In this document: positions 1,771 to 44,831 of the stretch, piece after piece | Position numbering within the stretch: the first letter of the stretch is position 1 | How the letters are laid out: the number at the start of each line of letters is the position of its first letter | The notes under the pieces: generated by a model | The model's database searches: none | What the model saw: only the letters and a program-made list of their open reading frames with translations | What the model was told of the DNA's origin: nothing | Position numbers and translations under genes: made by a program | DNA from: Nostoc sp. FACHB-280 | GTDB lineage: Bacteria; Cyanobacteriota; Cyanobacteriia; Cyanobacteriales; Nostocaceae | Direction: 5' to 3' | Length of the DNA: 64,000 nt | NCBI RefSeq assembly: GCF_014697615.1 | Contig: NZ_JACJSD010000013.1 | Coordinates: 62,001-126,000, forward strand

Positions 1771-4700
1771 CTACAACCCATTACCAATCAAAATAAAAGC
1801 CGACCAATAATAAGGATGATTAAACTCACTATTCTTACCAGTCAATAAAGCAATTTGCGCCTTTTGCAACGCCTCAGCTTTTGTAACTTTCCCAGCTTTC
1901 AACGCTGCATAAAACTCATTCATTAAAGCTTGTGTTCCACCATCAGATACAGCCCATAATGAAGCCATTGTGGCTTTTGCACCAGCTAATTGGATCTGAT
2001 ATCCTAACCCTAAAATTTCTTGTCCATTGGCTGATTTTTCGCCTAAACCAGTTTGACAAGCACTCAATACTACTAAATCAACATTTGACAAAGACCAATT
2101 TTCTATATCACGCAAAGTCGCGTGTTCGCCATCACCAAACACAATAAATGAATCTTCGGGAGAACCATTCACCAACTTGCCATGCGTCGCCAAATGTACA
2201 ATTTTATAATCATTCATTTGGGGAATTGTTGCATTAGGATTGAAATCTTTATCTAAGATAACCTTACTACCAGGAAGAATTTTAGCTAAGTTTTCGACTT
2301 CGGCTTTAGCAAATTCTAAACCACTAAACATTTCTTGTCTCTGACCAACTGCTACTGTATATTCGCCTTTAGTAAAAGCCGCAGCTAAAGCATTACTTGG
2401 TGTTGGCGGTTGATTTACTAATTTGGTCAAACTAGCAGAGGTAATATTATTAATGACAAACTTCTGCACTAACCAATTCTGCCCATCATATAATGCGGCT
2501 AATGGCACATATCTCAGCTTCCCATCGGGTGCATAAATTATAGTTTTAGCTTCGGCTTGTTTTAAGTCATTTTCTATGGGTTTAATCAACCAGTTATATA
2601 ATTTGTTGGCTGGGGTTTTACTATTTTTATAAGGAACAAGAATTGCGTCTCGAAATTCATTAATTGTCTGGTTTAATTCTGCGGCTTTAACTGGTACAGT
2701 GCGGTGAATTGGTGGCGCATCCGCCGAGACAATAACTAATTCTAATCTGTCATCTAAAACTAAAGGATATAACAATACAGCCTTTTGATTTAACTGGCGT
2801 AAGTTATCTCTTAAAGAATTGAGTTGGCGTAAGTTTAAATTTTCCTGTCCTGATGTGGCTGATAATTGTTGTACCAACGCCACAACCGAGGGACTTTTGA
2901 TAAACTTGTTAAATTCGGCGTTAGTGGTTTGTTCTAGTTTCACCAATTCAGCAAGGCGTTTTTCTTGAGTTGCGGTACGAGTTTGGGGGGGAATTTTTCG
3001 CAGGGTGGTGAGTTCTTTCCCCAGGGCGATCGCTTGATCTTGAATCGCGCTATACTTCTGAGATATTTGCTCTTCCTGTGGTTTCAACGGTAATTTTTCC
3101 GGTGTCACTGCTACGGTTGCAGAACTACCCCGTTGAGTATTGCGATTTGTAACTTTTGGCGTAGTAGTACCACGATTGCCAATATAATCACTAACTTCCT
3201 GAATTTTCAGCAAATCTAAAACTTGTTGCGCTTCGGCTGGACGATTTTGCTGCAATAATAAATCAGCTAGACGGCGATATCTTTCCGAGACGGTTTCGGT
3301 GTAAGATTTCTGCACATCTGTTGGCACACTTCGCAAACTTTGGCGAATCGTTTCTGTTAAGTTAACTGATTGCTTGTAAAATGCGATCGCTAGTGGTGGT
3401 TGATTTTGGGCTGCTAAAACATCTCCTAAAAATTTCAGCGTCGCAGCTTCACTAATTTTATCTTCCACCTCTCGATGAATAGCGACAGCTTGCTGATATA
3501 GTCCCAAAGCTTTATCATATTGATTTTGTTTTTGATAAACTTGCCCTAAGTTACTAATTGTTACGCCTTCACCAGTGCGATCGCCAACTTCCCGATAATT
3601 AGCTAAAGCCTGCTGGTTAAATTCTAGAGCTTGGTTATACTTACCTAAATTTTGGTAAACCCGTCCTATATTATTGAATGCAACTGCAAGACCTAATTTA
3701 TAGTTATTTTGCTTGTATATATCCAAAGCTTGCTGATATAACTTGAGTGCTTCGTCATACTTACCCAAGCTAAAATAAATCTGCCCAATATTATTCAGAT
3801 TTAACGCTGCACCTTGAAATTGAAATGAATCTTTGCCAAACGCATCACCTACATTAGCACGATTGGTAACTTGTTGCAGAGCTTGAGCATTTTGACCAAG
3901 GGCATTGTACAATAACTTGATTGCTTGCTCATCTGTACTTTTATATTCTCCAGTGCCAAGTTTTTTATAAATATTTGTAGACTTTTCCGCAAACTCCAAG
4001 GACTTTTGATACTGACCTAAGCTAAAATATGCACCGGAAATATTATTAAAAATCGCTGCTTGCGTCCCATAAAAAGTAGAACAGCATTCTTGTAAATTTT
4101 TTAATCCTTGCTGATAAGAATCTAAGGCTTGAGCGTAGTTACCCAAATTAAGATAAACAACACCAATGTTGTTTAAAGTTTGAGCAGTACCACTTTTATC
4201 ACCCTTGGCTTTTTGAATTGTCAAACTTTGTTGATAAAATTCTAAAGCTTGAGAATATTTGCCAGTACGGAAGTAAACTGAGCCAATATCTGCTAATAAA
4301 ATAGTTTCGCTAGTTGTGTAATTATAACCTTGAGGATTTGCCGCTTTTAGTTCTTGGAGAACTTTTAAAGCTGGTTGATAAAAATCGAGGGACTTTTGAT
4401 AATCTCCGAGATTCAGATAGACTTCAGCGATATAAGATAATGGTATCCATTCGTTCTCTTTATCGTTGAGTTTGCGGCGAATATCTAAGGCTGACTGCAA
4501 AAAATCCAGTGCTTTAAGGTACTCCCCCTTCCGCAAATAAACGTAGCCAATATTTACCAAGCTATTGGCTTCTCCAGCCTTCGCGCCATACTGTTTAAAT
4601 ATTGCTAAGGACTGTTGAAAGAGTTCTAACCCGACTTGTAAACCATCTAAACCCACTAAATCCTGATATACTATTCCCTCACCTTGATTATTTAACATGA

Positions 4701-38198: not shown

Positions 38199-38904
38199 TC
38201 AAAATATATTGGTTTGCCCACTCGGTATAGCTTTACCAGGATAGATTTGTTTAGAATCTTTGGGGATGTAAATCCATCCGAGGTCTTGTAGGCGATAGAC
38301 AAGATTAGATATTGTTACGCCAAGTTCCTTTTGTATTGCATAAAGATGTTTCCAATTAGTTAAATCACGTCCTTTAAGTTTAGCCTCTAGAATGTGTACA
38401 GGCATTAACAGACAACCAGCAAAATACTGAGCTTGCCATATACTGAGCTTGCCATTCAATATTTTTTAGCTGCCTATTCACATTTATTTGGATAGTTTGA
38501 GCGTCTATAGTGCGGCATAAAAAATATCTAGTGGCATCTTCTAGCCCCAAATTTAATTCTAACTGTTCTGTCAAACCGTCAGCTTCATTTTGATTGACAT
38601 GAAGTATCCAGTGTCCAATTTCATGAGCTATTGTAGATTGTTCAAATCCTCCATTTAGCTGAGGAATTAATTCATTGAGTACAATCTTTCTCTCTAATGG
38701 GAGAATCTTTGCCACTATCGGCCCTTGAGTATCAGGGGGTATACTTTGCCAGTCAACCATTATTCCTAAAGCATCAGCAGCACGACTAGCTTCAAAAGGC
38801 CACTTTGGAGGAAACCTTTCCATCTCCATAATTCTTAAAACTTCATTCGCTTTAGATTCAATTTCTTCTTTACGATAAAATCGATACTCTCGGAAGATGT
38901 TCAC
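38199..38904 (-). pseudogene. ImmA/IrrE-type metallopeptidase gene broken by a 16-bp tandem duplication
   Basis: The 5' part (38904 to about 38456, GTG start with GAGGAG ribosome site) encodes an ImmA/IrrE domain with the zinc motif HEIGH (His94, His98). The 3' part continues in another frame as AQYFAGCLLMPVHILEAKLKG and on to 38199. The break is a perfect tandem duplication of ATACTGAGCTTGCCAT (38424-38439 and 38440-38455), which adds 16 nt. Removing one copy restores a protein collinear with the neighbour at 38928-40019 (EWQAQYFA-CLLMP). Unlike that neighbour it has no N-terminal helix-turn-helix. Probably inactive as written, but able to revert by loss of one repeat. Confidence 0.9.
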
Positions 38905-38927: not shown

Positions 38928-40019
38928 TTATAACCAATACTTAATTTGCTGAGATTCTGATTCTCTATCTCCAAGAAATATTTTTTTAGAACCTTTAGGA
39001 ATATAAATCCAACCAAGATTTTGTAAACGATGTATGAGACTAGATATTGTGACTCCTAGCTCATCCTTAATTACGTAAAGGTGACTCCACTTAGTTAAAT
39101 CACGCCCGTTGCATAATTTTTGTAGAACATAACGAGGCATTAATAGACAATTTGCAAAATATTGAGCTTGCCACTCCACTGCTTCAGATTTATTGATTGG
39201 AATATTAACACTACGACAGAAGAATGAAATATCTTTCTTTTGCTCGTTACTATTTACATTAATATCTTCTGATAAAATTGCAACATCTTCTTTATTAATG
39301 TGAAGTACCCAGTGGCCTATTTCATGAGCAATTGTAGAATCTGTAAAAGCTCCTAACATTTCAGGCATACCTGAATTAATTAAAATTTTCCTTTCTAAAG
39401 GGAGAATCTTAGCTGCTATCAGCCCATACTCATCAGGTAATATGTCTACAATATCAATACTTAAATCTAGATAATCACATATTCTCTCAACATTTATTGG
39501 TACATTTATATGGTTATTATGCAAATATTTTATATTTTGCAGAATTTCATCAGCCCTACTTTCTATTTCCTCTTTGGAGTAGATAATATAAGGATTAAAT
39601 AAGGTAAGTTGTTTTTGAAGTTTTTCTAGTTTAGCTTTCAATTCAGCATTTTCTTTTTGCAATTTTGTAATTTGCTCATCTCGTGCTTTGACTAGTGAAT
39701 CAATACCTGGGCTTTCCCTCACTCGGCGAAATAACGCAGGCATTTCTTTATAGTTAGCTTTAACTAATTCCTCAAGAGCTTCTGAGTCATGTTGAGTCAT
39801 ACGTCCAGCCAGATAAATCAACTCTTCTGCATTTAAACTTAAGTGTTCTGCTAAGGAGCGGATCACCTTTTCGCTTGGCTCAACATGATCGTTTTCTAAC
39901 TTAGATAAGTAGGTAGAGTCTACCCCTACTTTTGTGGCTAGTTCACGCTGACTTAAACCTTTCTTTCTACGAGCTTGCCAAATAAACTTGCCAAAACTCT
40001 GCTTCTCTTGTTGATCCAT
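38928..40019 (-). CDS. XRE-family regulator fused to an ImmA/IrrE metallopeptidase
   Basis: 363 residues from the ATG at 40019 (GAAGGTG just upstream; a TTG at 40031 is less likely). An N-terminal XRE helix-turn-helix (about 10-65: KKGLSQRELATKVGVDSTYLSKLE), a coiled coil (about 105-140, KLQKENAELKAKLEKLQKQ), then an ImmA/IrrE zinc peptidase domain (about 150-340) with HEIGH (His232, Glu233, His236). This fusion recalls ImmA-ImmR of ICEBs1 and IrrE/DdrO, where cleavage of the repressor switches on a response. Here regulator and protease are in one chain, so it may switch itself. It diverges from the argonaute operon across a 348-bp spacer and is a good candidate regulator of it. Confidence 0.9.
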   Translation of the reverse strand: MDQQEKQSFGKFIWQARRKKGLSQRELATKVGVDSTYLSKLENDHVEPSEKVIRSLAEHLSLNAEELIYLAGRMTQHDSEALEELVKANYKEMPALFRRVRESPGIDSLVKARDEQITKLQKENAELKAKLEKLQKQLTLFNPYIIYSKEEIESRADEILQNIKYLHNNHINVPINVERICDYLDLSIDIVDILPDEYGLIAAKILPLERKILINSGMPEMLGAFTDSTIAHEIGHWVLHINKEDVAILSEDINVNSNEQKKDISFFCRSVNIPINKSEAVEWQAQYFANCLLMPRYVLQKLCNGRDLTKWSHLYVIKDELGVTISSLIHRLQNLGWIYIPKGSKKIFLGDRESESQQIKYWL

Positions 40020-40192
40020 AATCACCTTCAAACAGTTGATATAATTCTTGAACCATACATGATAAGCCTTCTGTAGTATGAGGTCATACAGGAATGAAAG
40101 CTTTGTAAAGCAAGAGTTTTTATAATTTACTGGGTTCTAAGTTGCTCAGATTTATCAAGCTGTACATAACTCAATGTATAGATGATATCAAT

Positions 40193-40302
40193 GTTGAAAA
40201 ATTAATTCAACCCTATTTGTTTATTTTTTAGATACTTGACATATTATTTCAACTTGCATAATATAGTTCAACTATAAGTAGCTAACAGCTAGGTAAGTTG
40301 AA
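40193..40302. promoter_or_regulatory. Cluster of five TTCAAC/GTTGAA boxes in the divergent spacer
   Basis: TTCAAC occurs at 40206-40211, 40248-40253 and 40267-40272; its complement GTTGAA at 40193-40198 and 40297-40302. Five hexamers in 110 bp, two inside or at the edge of a sigma-70-like promoter, suggest an operator. The likely binder is the XRE domain of the divergent gene. This is inference from repetition and position. Confidence 0.5.
40236..40264 (+). promoter_or_regulatory. Sigma-70-like promoter of the argonaute operon
   Basis: A perfect -35 box TTGACA (40236-40241), a 17-nt spacer and a -10-like TAATAT (40259-40264), facing the argonaute operon about 100 bp before the first gene. 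A TTCAAC box lies inside the spacer (40248-40253). Confidence 0.55.
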
Positions 40303-40367
40303 GTAGTATAGCAACTCAGGCTGTTACATGATGACAAAAATACACAATGTTACACGGGAGCAAAGCT

Positions 40368-40589
40368 GTGAAAACACAATCCTCAAATTTTGAACAACTG
40401 TGCTTTTCCATAGGTAGACCCCTAGCAATTCTCTTAGAGGAAGTTCAACAATCAAGTCACAATCCACAACTTATAGAAGCTGCTGCACAGATGCTAGAAG
40501 GTTTACAGGCTTTTCAACAAGCAAACGAGACTGGACTATCAAAATCGAATAAAACCAGCACGGCAATCTATGAGATTCTTACCAAATAA
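40368..40589 (+). CDS. Small protein of unknown function, first gene of the argonaute operon
   Basis: 73 residues from the GTG at 40368, chosen because GGGAG lies 7 nt upstream; ATG 40347 would give 80 residues. No family recognised. It is predicted all-helical (FEQLCFSIGRPLAILLEEVQ, LIEAAAQMLEGLQAFQQAN), without a signal peptide. It ends 36 bp before the Cas4-like nuclease gene and is on the same strand downstream of a good promoter, so it is probably co-transcribed with the nuclease and argonaute. Its role is open: accessory subunit, regulator or inhibitor. Confidence 0.6.
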   Translation: MKTQSSNFEQLCFSIGRPLAILLEEVQQSSHNPQLIEAAAQMLEGLQAFQQANETGLSKSNKTSTAIYEILTK

Positions 40590-40625
40590 GACTTTTGTTC
40601 CACTCAACTCATAAACTTGAAAGCC

Positions 40626-41447
40626 ATGAACAAAACTTGGCTACCATCTGCCAGTTACAACCTTTGGTTACAGTACGCACCACCAATAGGTCAAGAACAC
40701 TTACACTGCGACATGAAACGAGGTTTTACAAAAGCGCGAGCAAGAGAACCCTTGGTTGCAGCAATATTGGACAGTGATAATACTCATCAAAGAATTGGAT
40801 TACTTGCACAAAAGGGGGTTTATGAGTTTCATCAAGATCCATTTTTACTACACCGAACAGATGCAATAAAGCAGTTAACAGAGATTCTGAAATTGGAAAA
40901 AGAGTCAGATGTAGTTCAGCAGCGAGTAATTCCAATCCTGACACACTATCAAAAAAATCCCGTTCTCGCCAATAAGAAAATAGTTAAACTCTGTCGAGGT
41001 GATGAAGGTTTTCCCGAATCTATTCTGATTCAGCAAGGTAATTACTCATTCAACCTCTATGCTGCAATTGACTGTATTTTTGGTGAAGAAGATGCAACTT
41101 TGCATATTTTAGATTTCAAGACAGGTAAAACTGACTTTGATAAGCGACAGGCATATATTTACCTTCTAGCGGCTAAATATATATACCCACAACAAAAAGC
41201 CATAGCATCGTTTTATAACTTGGAAAATGGTAAGTGGTCTGAACCTATCACAGCGACATCCAACACACTTGAAGCTTTTCAAATAGAGTTAGCATTGATA
41301 GCTCAAAAACATCAAAAAGACATGAAGCTTTACCGTAATAATCCGGCTGAGTTTAACCAAATTTTTCTTCCTAATCCTGGTATAAGCTGTCGCTACTGTC
41401 AATTCAATTCAATTTGTAGTTTTGCTATTTCAGAGACAGGTTCATGA
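40626..41447 (+). CDS. Cas4-like PD-(D/E)XK nuclease of the argonaute operon
   Basis: 273 residues from ATG 40626 (TTG 40617 is less likely). The RecB/Cas4-type nuclease core is visible: an acidic strand AAIDCIF (Asp149), then HILDFKTGK with Asp163 and Lys165, followed by the [14 protein letters not shown] helix that usually carries the QxxxY motif. The C-terminal [10 protein letters not shown] motif (C-x2-C-x5-C) is like the iron-sulphur ligands of Cas4, with a fourth Cys possibly in the N-terminal part (HLHCDMKRG). Cas4-like nucleases are known neighbours of some long prokaryotic Argonautes and could generate or trim guides or degrade targets. It overlaps the argonaute start as ATGA. Confidence 0.85.
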
Positions 41448-43696
41448 CTACCAATCGTCAAGCTTCTACATCTCCAATTTTTTTAAGTGAGATTTTCTTA
41501 CTAAGCATTAATCAACCGAATTTAATATGCTTTCGTCTTTCTCCTGGAGTTGACAAACAGATAGGGAACCGAATTGGCTGGCGTTTTAACCAGAAATTTC
41601 CAGATATTATTGTAATTTGGCATAATGGATTTTTCTGGGTTTTAGCCAAGCCAAATCAAGCGATGCCAAGTCAAAATCAATGGCGAGAGGCATTGAGAAA
41701 AATTGAAGAGGAATTAAAAAAAGATATTGGTGATCGCTCCTATTCAATACAATGGGTTAGTCAACCACAAATAACAGCTTCTATTTTGGCTCAATTAGCT
41801 GTAAGAATATTACAAGTTAGACGACCTTTCTCATCTGATACTGTTTGGTATGAAAATAAGGTTGAAGTTAAACGAGAAGTTGATTTCTGGGCAGAAACAA
41901 TAGAAATACAAGATATTTTACATCCTGCGATCGCTTTTACAATTCACAGTTCTTTTGTTTTCAAAGGTGACTTAGCTGAGTTTTACGAAAATCATCCTTA
42001 TCGACAAGATCCAAATAAGCTTTTAATTGGTTTAAAAGTCCGAGATATTGAAAAAAATAGCTCTGCTAAAATTGTGGCTCTCGCAGGAACTTTTGGAGAG
42101 CGTAGAGAAGAGCTTCTTGAACAAGCAACTGGAGCTATTAGTAAACAAAAACTTGAACCTGAAGCAGCACCAGATGAACAACCTGTGGTAAGTATTCAAT
42201 TTGGTAAAGATAAACAACAATATCCTTATCCAATGGCTGCTTTAAAGCCCTGTGTCACAGAAGAAACTGCTGACTTATTTGAAGTAAAGTATAGTGATTT
42301 ACGGAAACAGACTAAAATTCCTTATAAAGAAAGACAGAATCGTTTAGCTTTATGTAAGCAAGAAGCTACAAATAGTTTAGCTGTATATGGTTTTCAGTTA
42401 GCCACTAAATGTATTAACAGTGGCAAGTATCCCAAATTATTCTTAGTACCTAACTTCAGACTGGAAGACACATTGCTTCAATTTGGCAACAATGTGATTC
42501 GCAAGCGCAATGAGGTATTAAAGGGATTATCAACAGGTAAAGTTTATCGCCGTCATCAAGATTATCAAGATATCTCAAGAAAAATTCGCATCGCAGCACT
42601 TAAAATAGGCGATTTTCAAGTTAATCTATCTTTTCTTCAGCAACTCCGTCAACGCTTAAAAGACTATGGCTTTGAAAGCCTTGAGATTGATGAGGATAAA
42701 AGAAAAGCTGTTTCTATTAATGGTTTAAGCAGTGCTGAAGCTAGAGCTAAAGTGGAGAAAGCCCTTGATGATTTAATAGCTATTCCTACTGATATTGTTT
42801 TGACTTTTCTACCCCAGGATGATCGCCATACGGATAATAGTGATGATGGTAGTTTATATACTTTCATTTCTTCAAGGCTACTGCGACGTAGTAATCCTGA
42901 AATAGTCAGCCAAGTAATTTATGAGGAGACTTTAAAAAATCCTAGCAATTATAAAAATATCATCAATCAAGTAATAATAGGAATTTTGGCAAAGTTAGGA
43001 AATTTGCCCTTTATTCTAGCTCAACCTTTAGGGGTTGCTGATTATTTTATCGGCTTTGATATTTCCAGAAAAGCCAAAAAGAAAACCTTTGGTAGCATAA
43101 ATGTTTGTGCAAGTGTGCGTCTGTATGGGAAACAAGGTGAGTTTATTCGTTATAAATTAGAAGATGCGTTAACAGAAGGTGAAGAAATTGATAAACAAAC
43201 ACTAGAAAGATTTCTCCCATCTGCTGATCTCAGCGAAAAAACTGTACTAATTTACCGTGACGGACACTTTTGTGGTAATGAAGTTGAACATTTACAGGAA
43301 AGAGCTAAAGCAATTAATTCTAAATTTATCCTCGTAGAGTGCATTAAGTCTGGAATTCCCAGACTTTATAACTATTATCAGTCAGTTGTGAAAGCCCCTA
43401 CACAAGGTCTAGCACTTCGCTTGTCTTCTCGCGAAGTACTGTTAGTAACAACTAAATTACCATCTGAAAATATGGGCTTACCTTATCCTCTACGTTTGAG
43501 AGTACATGAAAGAGGACACCAAGTACCTATTGAAGATGTAATAGAAGCAACATTAAAACTCACTTTGCTACATCATGGAGCATTGAAAGAGCCACGCTTA
43601 CCTGTTCCACTCTATGGATCTGACCGTATAGCTTATAGGCGGTTACAAGGTATTGTACCAAATTCCCTGAATGGCGATCGCCAGTTTTGGCTATAG
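41444..43696 (+). CDS. Prokaryotic Argonaute (long type) with complete catalytic tetrad
   Basis: 750 residues, the length of long pAgos with N, PAZ-like, MID and PIWI regions. The MID region has the 5'-phosphate pocket signature Tyr503-Lys504 in SNYKNIINQ, with Gln509 and Lys517 (AKLGN). PIWI shows Asp539 (YFIGFDISR), Glu573 (YKLEDA), Asp606 (IYRDGHF) and Asp727 ([11 protein letters not shown]). The spacings of 34 and 67 between the first three fit known catalytic pAgos, so it should cut nucleic acid. Such proteins use short DNA or RNA guides against plasmids and phages. Start ATG overlaps the upstream nuclease stop (ATGA). Guide and target types cannot be read from sequence. Confidence 0.93.
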
Positions 43697-43806: not shown

Positions 43807-44385
43807 TCAAACAAAAAGTTCATCCAAATCAACTTTTTTCAAGTTAACTTGTGACAAGTCAACATCACTGAGATCAGCTTTGTACAAGATGGTTTTATGG
43901 AGATCCGCATAACTCAAGTCTGCTTGGCTCAAGTTAGCTCCCGTGAGGTTTGCACCGTTAAGATTGGCTCCTGCTAAGTTAGCACCACGGAGGTTGGCGT
44001 AACTCAAATCTGCACCACTTAAATTTGCACCACTGAGGTCAGCATTGTGTAAATTAGCTAAACGTAGGTCTGATTTTTGTAGAGATGCTTTGTGTAAGTC
44101 TACGCTGCTTAGGTTGGCGCGAATTAAGTTAGCAGCTTTGAGGTTTGTCCAAATTAGTTTCGCACCACTGAAGTTAGTTCGCCAAAGGCAAGATAATGCC
44201 AAATTTGCTTCTATGAGGTTGGCTCCACTCAAATTGGAATGAGATAAAGTGACGTTTACTAAGCTGGCGCTATCTAAGTTAATCCCAGCTAGACATACTT
44301 CACTCAGATTAACTGAATGCAGGCAAACCTGTGTGAATTTTCTCTCTCCTACCTGATAGCGCCTGAGAAGTTCATCAGCGTCCAT
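43807..44385 (-). CDS. Pentapeptide-repeat protein
   Basis: About 192 residues from ATG 44385, which has GGAAGGCAGG upstream (ATG 44409 is possible). From about residue 30 to the end there are around 30 consecutive A(D/N)LxX pentapeptides (ANLSGADLSYANLRGANLAG), which fold as a right-handed quadrilateral beta helix. No signal peptide, so probably cytoplasmic. Functions of cyanobacterial members are mostly unknown; a few elsewhere protect DNA gyrase. Convergent with the argonaute gene, probably unrelated. Confidence 0.88.
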   Translation of the reverse strand: MDADELLRRYQVGERKFTQVCLHSVNLSEVCLAGINLDSASLVNVTLSHSNLSGANLIEANLALSCLWRTNFSGAKLIWTNLKAANLIRANLSSVDLHKASLQKSDLRLANLHNADLSGANLSGADLSYANLRGANLAGANLNGANLTGANLSQADLSYADLHKTILYKADLSDVDLSQVNLKKVDLDELFV

Positions 44386-44831
44386 ACAGCCTGCCTTCCA
44401 AATGATCATTTACTTAACTCGATTTAGTTGAATTAATTGGTTAACAAATGTACGCATGAACTGACTTTGCAATGAAAGTCTGAGGGCAAATGCTTGACTG
44501 GATGTGAATTGCTTTGTACAACCATCTGTAAAGAAATATAACAAAATCGTTACAAAAGTACAACAAATTCTCAGTTATGCGTTTATAGTTCCTGTTTATA
44601 GGAGGGATATGGCAGTCCGATTTGATTTTTGAACAAATATATGTAAGGACGAACTTATGTCCGTCCCTACTTGAAATTTTTTATATAGCAGTAGCCAAAT
44701 TGGTTAGGACATCGATAAATAATAAAACTTGGACACCACAAAGCTTTTAACCCTGTCACCTGTCACCGTTCGGCTGACGCTCACGGCGGAAGCCTATTAC
44801 CTGTTCCCTGCTATATTTCTGGCAAATTTCT
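44386..44831. other. Intergenic region with STRR and dispersed repeats
   Basis: About 445 bp, no gene seen. It holds GGACGAACTTATGTCCGTCC (about 44647-44666, an imperfect inverted repeat), a short CCTGTCA heptamer run (44752-44767), and a dispersed-repeat fragment CGTTCGGCTGACGCTCACGG (about 44767-44786). Confidence 0.5.

Follow-up and report, generated by a model that had tools for sequence, protein, structure and literature searches.

The locus studied here raises the question of how a prokaryotic Argonaute operon might be controlled. On the plus strand of the window, by which we mean the whole 64,000-nucleotide stretch of Nostoc sp. FACHB-280 DNA that was analysed, three co-directional genes span 40368–43696, and on the opposite strand lies a gene for a repressor joined to a metallopeptidase. 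A sequence-only reading had taken this arrangement for a regulated anti-plasmid or anti-phage system. Homology, catalytic residues, gene order and the operator/promoter layout support that view insofar as they predict an active and regulated pair, but the pair itself was already known. Our preferred reading, which we regard as probable, is that of a regulated DNA-interference operon that would stay repressed until the peptidase removes the repressor.

Genes of the operon

The reading frames of all three genes were confirmed, and their order is the one first described: a small gene, a Cas4-like nuclease gene and a long Argonaute gene on one strand, the last two joined by an ATGA overlap at 41444–41447. 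The genes are real beyond chance, given their full-length family matches and a gene order conserved across 17 numbered families.

The Cas4-family gene (40617–41447, plus strand, with a further ATG at 40626) encodes a protein that matched the PADLOC model Aga_Cas4-like_Nuc end to end (E = 1.6e-140). Its close solved relatives are PDB 9iab and 9iac, and Pfam called PDDEXK_1. Residues D152, D166, K168, C31, C258, C261 and C267 were invariant in 97/97 tabulated relatives (69 with an Argonaute and 28 orphans; two further rows lay outside the table). The DFK catalytic residues and C-x2-C-x5-C cluster reported earlier were therefore borne out, as D166, K168 and C258-x2-C261-x5-C267. A PD-(D/E)XK core, four cysteines, a full-length match to solved and modelled members and an adjacent pAgo together mark the protein as an Argonaute-associated nuclease of the ACE1 type. 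Canonical CRISPR Cas4 was ruled out by a score of 18.9 bits against the cut-off of 65 for the equivalog TIGR00372 and by the non-CRISPR setting; no other cas genes were seen among the scanned neighbours of the gene, which adjoins the Argonaute gene.

The Argonaute (750 aa; 41444–43696, plus strand) aligned over residues 2–750 with positions 2–737 of the 737 in PADLOC pAgo_II, and over residues 8–750 with the solved protein PDB 9iad (1043 bits). These alignments give it a full-length N-PAZ-MID-PIWI architecture; Piwi was the sole domain called by Pfam. Residues were compared across 63 of the 69 loci in which a Cas4-like gene and an Argonaute gene are adjacent, the six others having been dropped for want of a single reading frame with model coverage of 85% or more. 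Conservation was complete at D539, E580 and D606 (63/63 each), and the position of D727 held Asp in 55, His in six and a gap in two. Aligned with AaAgo, CpAgo and KmAgo, these four residues make up a DEDX catalytic tetrad in the PIWI domain. The earlier catalytic set kept its three aspartates, but Glu573, there named as the fourth member, was rejected as the glutamate finger: it is Glu in 58/63 relatives and stands opposite non-Glu residues in all three reference proteins, whereas E580 pairs with the glutamate in the ‘GE’ motif of each. By position along the chain, the KmAgo glutamate is residue 562, which we take to be the glutamate finger of that protein. MID domains carry a characteristic pattern of guide-pocket residues. 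The Tyr503-Lys504 pocket proposed at first did not hold up, as neither residue is conserved (Tyr in 29/63, Lys in 27/63); within the MID region, Y472, Q490 and K517 show no variation (63/63 each). The residues as aligned support a long-A Argonaute that is catalytically active.

Because both proteins have end-to-end PADLOC matches and solved relatives (9iad, 9iab and 9iac), the core pair is, by homology, a system of an already known type, namely a long-A pAgo with a Cas4-family nuclease (pAgo_II plus Aga_Cas4-like_Nuc). The window resembles that type in that both proteins match over their full length and share its catalytic residues; it differs in that a small gene precedes the pair and a divergent, fused switch with operator-like sites accompanies it. 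Bobadilla Ugarte et al., in Mol Cell in 2025, reportedly studied the pair as ‘ACE1’ with cyanobacterial pAgos, and 9iab–9iad presumably come from that study.

The small gene (40368–40589, plus strand) encodes 73 aa with four predicted helices, and its GTG start at 40368 agrees with its homologs, which align from there. Its AlphaFold model (mean pLDDT 75.7) had zero PDB matches at E ≤ 0.001, the protein had nothing above cut-off in Pfam or NCBIfam, and PHROGs gave weak matches of unknown function only (best E = 7.2e-4). Model hits were found at 14 of the 104 loci read, all 14 falling among 70 loci (the 69 adjacent ones and L099), and in 18/388 genomes, 13 of which carried the gene at a Cas4-Argonaute locus. 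These counts rule it out as a core component. The 73-aa protein is an optional accessory of the operon; that it modulates the nuclease pair or its induction is a low-confidence guess. The slot ahead of the Cas4-like gene is itself variable, being occupied by the 73-aa protein (14 loci), by an MMADHC-domain protein (nine loci; Pfam E = 2.2e-16 for the one protein scanned) or by nothing recognised.

The divergent XRE-M78 protein

The divergent XRE-metallopeptidase gene named in the sequence-only reading is real. It lies at 38928–40031 on the minus strand and encodes a 367-aa fusion of an XRE repressor and an M78 metallopeptidase with the motif HEIGH, as shown by the census and by Pfam (HTH_3, 1.7e-13; Peptidase_M78, 3.7e-8). 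A second M78 gene follows at 38199–38904 (minus strand), split in the window into two overlapping frames. Across the loci the M78 proteins carried HExxH in 49/50 cases. Where frames were listed, XRE and M78 were usually separate genes, overlapping or adjacent; they are fused in the window and in L034, L087 and L090, each time with a second M78 gene. That second gene is uninterrupted in L002, L034, L087 and L090.

The protein can be compared with several repressor-peptidase systems. It matched PADLOC capH (E = 7e-8), capP (E = 1.8e-15) and RmrA, a model of HTH+M78-like proteins to which its layout and length are similar (E = 6.1e-15, residues 14–342). Its modelled HTH resembles the DNA-binding domains of DdrO (6jq1), CapH and ImmR (7t8i), along with those of many other HTH proteins (Foldseek E = 2.5e-3 to 6.3e-3); the predicted structure is poor in the M78 part (pTM 0.40). 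ImmR/ImmA of ICEBs1 and DdrO/PprI of Deinococcus likewise combine an XRE-type repressor with an M78 peptidase, but the switch in the window faces an Argonaute operon. CapH and CapP, which regulate CBASS, BREX, Pycsar, DISARM and Bub operons (PMC13373217, text available in part), come closest in setting: an HTH repressor and an HExxH M78 peptidase beside a defence operon are found here too, often as two genes in Argonaute-linked loci. The window differs in its XRE-M78 fusion and in a capP match confined to positions 12–152 of 242, which leaves out the C-terminal part of the model. We therefore call the protein ‘CapP-like’ and not CapP. PprI and CapP are activated by single-stranded DNA (accessible parts of PMC10904395 and PMC13373217), and in PprI this activation requires a C-terminal GAF-like domain (PMC10904395, same extent). 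Pfam annotated no such domain in the XRE-M78 protein. Because the capP match is partial, single-stranded DNA sensing of the CapP or PprI kind is unsupported, and the inducing signal may differ from that of CapP.

Census of Argonaute and Cas4-like loci

Of 292 genomes searched in the phylum, 24 had an Argonaute match, and of 388 searched in the order, 140 had a Cas4-like match; the 99 Cas4-like places examined are a subset of those matched. With six further loci added from genome contigs, 104 loci were read in all, duplicates being merged (L003 with L083, L004 with L114, L006 with L119). The census models and the operator consensus were built from the linked loci themselves, many of which are related; standalone loci stayed outside the consensus.

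Among the 69 adjacent Cas4-Argonaute loci, a full divergent XRE+M78 switch was present at 53, remnants at seven and none at eight, and one lay at a contig edge. L099, which has the switch and an interrupted Argonaute gene, was counted apart. L160 has the Cas4-like and Argonaute genes in reversed order, without a switch. Because eight adjacent loci lack it, the switch is not essential. No XRE+M78 genes were found beside orphan Cas4-like genes (0/28) or beside Argonautes without a Cas4-like gene (0/5). The full sets of switch, Cas4-like gene and Argonaute gene account for the 17 families mentioned above, whose numbers were assigned by hand from the two genome searches. Linkage across relatives thus holds for Argonaute, Cas4-like nuclease and switch but not for the small gene, so that what had been called an unusual three-gene set consists of an optional first gene and a known pair, with a divergent switch that is common.

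At the 50 loci with all four genes, distances correlated between XRE and Argonaute (r = 0.63), between M78 and Argonaute (r = 0.68) and between Cas4 and Argonaute (0.82); in permutation tests of co-divergence, 0/999 permutations reached the observed value for either XRE or M78 with Argonaute. The M78 family is not Argonaute-specific, as it gave matches at E ≤ 1e-30 in 178/388 genomes. Together with 21 standalone XRE+M78 loci read away from Argonaute, these matches rule out a switch exclusive to Argonaute. A single clade of Argonaute-linked regulators was also unsupported: six linked regulators fell inside the smallest group holding all 21 standalone ones (support 0.74).

We think it unlikely that the operon mainly serves the cell's own DNA, in replication termination, decatenation or repair, and not defence. 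In the available text of PMC10269773, SeAgo and LrAgo aid division of E. coli when gyrase is inhibited and bind small DNAs derived from sites of replication termination, and a switch of the DNA-damage type would fit such a role as well. Against it stand the patchy distribution of both genes in the genomes searched and the carriage of one cassette by a plasmid: when plasmids were searched with the Argonaute, a single close match emerged, in Nostoc sp. CENA543, where a 44-kb plasmid has switch, Cas4-like gene and Argonaute together. Further, in Synechococcus elongatus, where SeAgo is likewise a cyanobacterial long-A pAgo with a Cas4-like nuclease, both SeAgo and the nuclease limit RSF1010 plasmids (PMC10653904, portions available), and for this reason DNA interference would be the likely outcome in the window too.

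Candidate operators and recognition helix

Four predicted operator sites of 9–10/10 matches lie within a 378-bp stretch, at 40035–40315, whereas two or more sites occurred in 0/2000 shuffles that preserved dinucleotides. The perfect one, GTTGA-N9-TCAAC at 40193–40211 (10/10), outscored every other match in the window (23.2 bits, compared with 14.2 for the runner-up). The three others, each 9/10, lie at the start of the XRE-M78 gene (40035–40053), 42 bp from the perfect site and over a -35 box (40235–40253), and downstream of the corresponding -10 box (40297–40315). These boxes belong to the predicted operon promoter TTGACA-N17-TAATAT (40236–40264, plus strand; 10/12 matches). The stretch scanned held six promoter-like sites compared with 2.2 ± 1.7 in shuffles, which makes the scan, taken by itself, weak evidence for a promoter. 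With four sites, one of them over the -35 box, the layout is that expected of a repressor blocking the promoter of the operon and, probably, that of its own gene.

The same dyad recurred between repressor and operon elsewhere. TTGA-N9-TCAA was the commonest dyad, present in 31/41 non-redundant switch-operon regions compared with at most five in 20 base-shuffled sets, and we consider it by sequence a conserved candidate operator; the longer GTTGA-N9-TCAAC was present in 25/41 (shuffled sets, at most two). Site pairs about 37–45 bp apart were common, and a region could hold up to six copies. When the 500 bp preceding the Cas4-like gene were scanned, a weight-matrix site of at least 16 bits was found at 39/54 full-switch loci, 1/7 loci with remnants, 0/9 loci without a switch and 0/28 orphans.

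Seven of the 41 regions had no N9 site at 9 bits, and all seven were F-type. Regions whose regulator has the recognition helix FTYLSK mostly lacked the N9 dyad and carried GTTG-N10-CAAC-type sites, one base shorter (6/8 exact; shuffled maximum 3); among linked F-type regions N10 sites were found in 7/9. Here and below, N10 and N11 denote the spacing between the half-sites GTTG and CAAC. We tabulated 59 non-redundant regulators by helix residue and spacing. Those with Y, S or H (n = 32) had N11 in 29 cases, ties in two and no site in one, and those with F (n = 27) had N10 in 24, N11 in one (L140) and none in two. All 21 standalone loci had F, and their non-redundant set had N10 sites at 17/18 and N11 at zero. 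Overall there were 58 N10 and 57 N11 sites (about 0.5 each in shuffles) and, for each of the remaining spacings between 6 and 16, zero to eight sites. Both L087 and L090 carry a single N10 and a single N11 site. The shuffles for the dyad, FTYLSK and spacing counts preserved base composition only. L036, a Y within the F group, has N11 and supports covariation of helix and spacing, whereas L140, an F within the Y group, also has N11 and contradicts it. Half-site spacing thus appears mostly to follow the recognition-helix residue, and few independent changes underlie the pattern.

These data bear on two further alternatives. In one, which we think quite unlikely, the XRE-M78 pair would be an addiction module, or one resembling a toxin-antitoxin system, that is carried along next to the defence operon without controlling it. 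A toxin-antitoxin system made up of an XRE protein and a zinc metalloproteinase has been described (PMC10538038, available in part), and the XRE-M78 family occurs elsewhere in genomes; but the divergent orientation, with sites lying across the promoter of the operon, the co-divergence of XRE and M78 with Argonaute, and the 0/28 count beside orphan Cas4-like genes all speak against this. Also quite unlikely, we think, is the idea that the palindrome GTTGAC...GTCAAC is no operator but the overlapping, opposed -35 boxes of two divergent promoters: the half-site GTTGAC does resemble a -35 box, containing most of TTGACA, and one window site coincides with the predicted box, but the copies are repeated, often at intervals of 37–45 bp, their spacing is confined to N10 and N11 and tracks the helix residue, and they are absent from switch-less loci and orphan genes.

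Discussion

Returning to a regulated DNA-interference operon, its working can be outlined from relatives. The Cas4-family nuclease would make or trim short single-stranded DNA guides, as solved and studied relatives suggest, and the Argonaute would load these guides and cut matching DNA of plasmids, phages or transforming DNA. The XRE part would repress the operon and probably itself. On a stress signal, the M78 peptidase would cleave or inactivate the repressor and free the promoter, in the manner of ImmR/ImmA, DdrO/PprI and CapH/CapP. Because repressor and peptidase are fused in the window, the peptidase would work either in cis or from one subunit on another.

Ryazansky et al. (2018) listed Cas4 proteins and lambda-repressor-like proteins among the genes of pAgo operons (PMC6299218, as far as available); the words ‘peptidase’, ‘IrrE’ and ‘XRE’ do not appear in the available main text of that paper, nor does ‘Argonaute’ in the available part of PMC13373217. 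In the literature searched, which most subscription papers lay beyond, we recognised no paper on a repressor-protease pair controlling an Argonaute. For this reason we call the combination of Argonaute-Cas4 pair and XRE-M78 switch new, with caution. The searchable literature yielded no account of how defence by Argonaute is induced.

More tentatively, and with some doubt, we suggest that Cas4-Argonaute immunity in cyanobacteria is inducible, kept off until DNA stress by an ImmA/IrrE-type switch and a co-evolved operator code (between GTTG and CAAC, N11 for Y, S or H in the helix and N10 for F); the single-stranded DNA from which guides would be made may also be the inducer.

If the reading of a repressed, peptidase-released operon is true, Argonaute would join CBASS, BREX, Pycsar, DISARM and Bub (PMC13373217, part available) among the defence systems run by protease-released repressors. 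The conserved unit of repressor, protease and operator would then make Argonaute induction directly testable, and the inducing signal could be searched for.

Interrupted reading frames

We found that the Argonaute reading frame was split in seven related loci (L043, L097, L098, L105, L111, L136 and L158), while the Cas4-like gene remained open in each of them. Either Argonaute has been lost repeatedly, or the splits are errors of sequencing. Broken frames were also seen among the regulator genes. In the window, the second M78 peptidase gene (38199-38904, minus strand), which lies beside the fused XRE-M78 regulator, was broken into two overlapping reading frames; the same gene was uninterrupted in loci L002, L034, L087 and L090. 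The fused regulator itself was split into two frames in L002 (about 2010-3031, minus strand), with the break falling within the HTH. This locus belongs to Nostoc sp. WHI, and its Argonaute is 87% identical to that of the window.

Neighboring genes and related loci

Directly downstream of Argonaute, the window encodes a pentapeptide-repeat protein (43807-44409, minus strand). Among the loci compared, this protein was represented by the window's own copy and otherwise only by weak repeat-like matches in L023.

Twenty-eight orphan Cas4-like places were examined, drawn from the relatives and from the window's own genome. The latter carries a second, orphan Cas4-like gene (L143; G000:C33:87111-87917) that is 55% identical, and neither Argonaute nor the switch was found within the stretch read around it.

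The XRE-M78 switch family also occurs away from Argonaute, in a set of 21 standalone loci (L173-L190, L192, L198 and L200), where the XRE gene is preceded by arrays of predicted operators of the GTTG-N10-CAAC type. These pairs usually have a conserved gene cluster nearby that encodes as many as four proteins: at least one of the four cluster proteins of L178 was present in 19 of the 21 loci. A Pfam search with these four proteins returned no match at E<=0.01.

Nine loci (L086, L089, L092-L095, L110, L112 and L115) carry a gene for an MMADHC-domain (PF10229) protein directly upstream of the Cas4-like gene, the slot that is filled in other loci by the small gene. Remote homologs of the small protein, 73 aa long, are encoded in L193-L196. 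These loci also contain a relative of a NACHT-domain NTPase gene, which hints that the small protein is used in a second defence setting.
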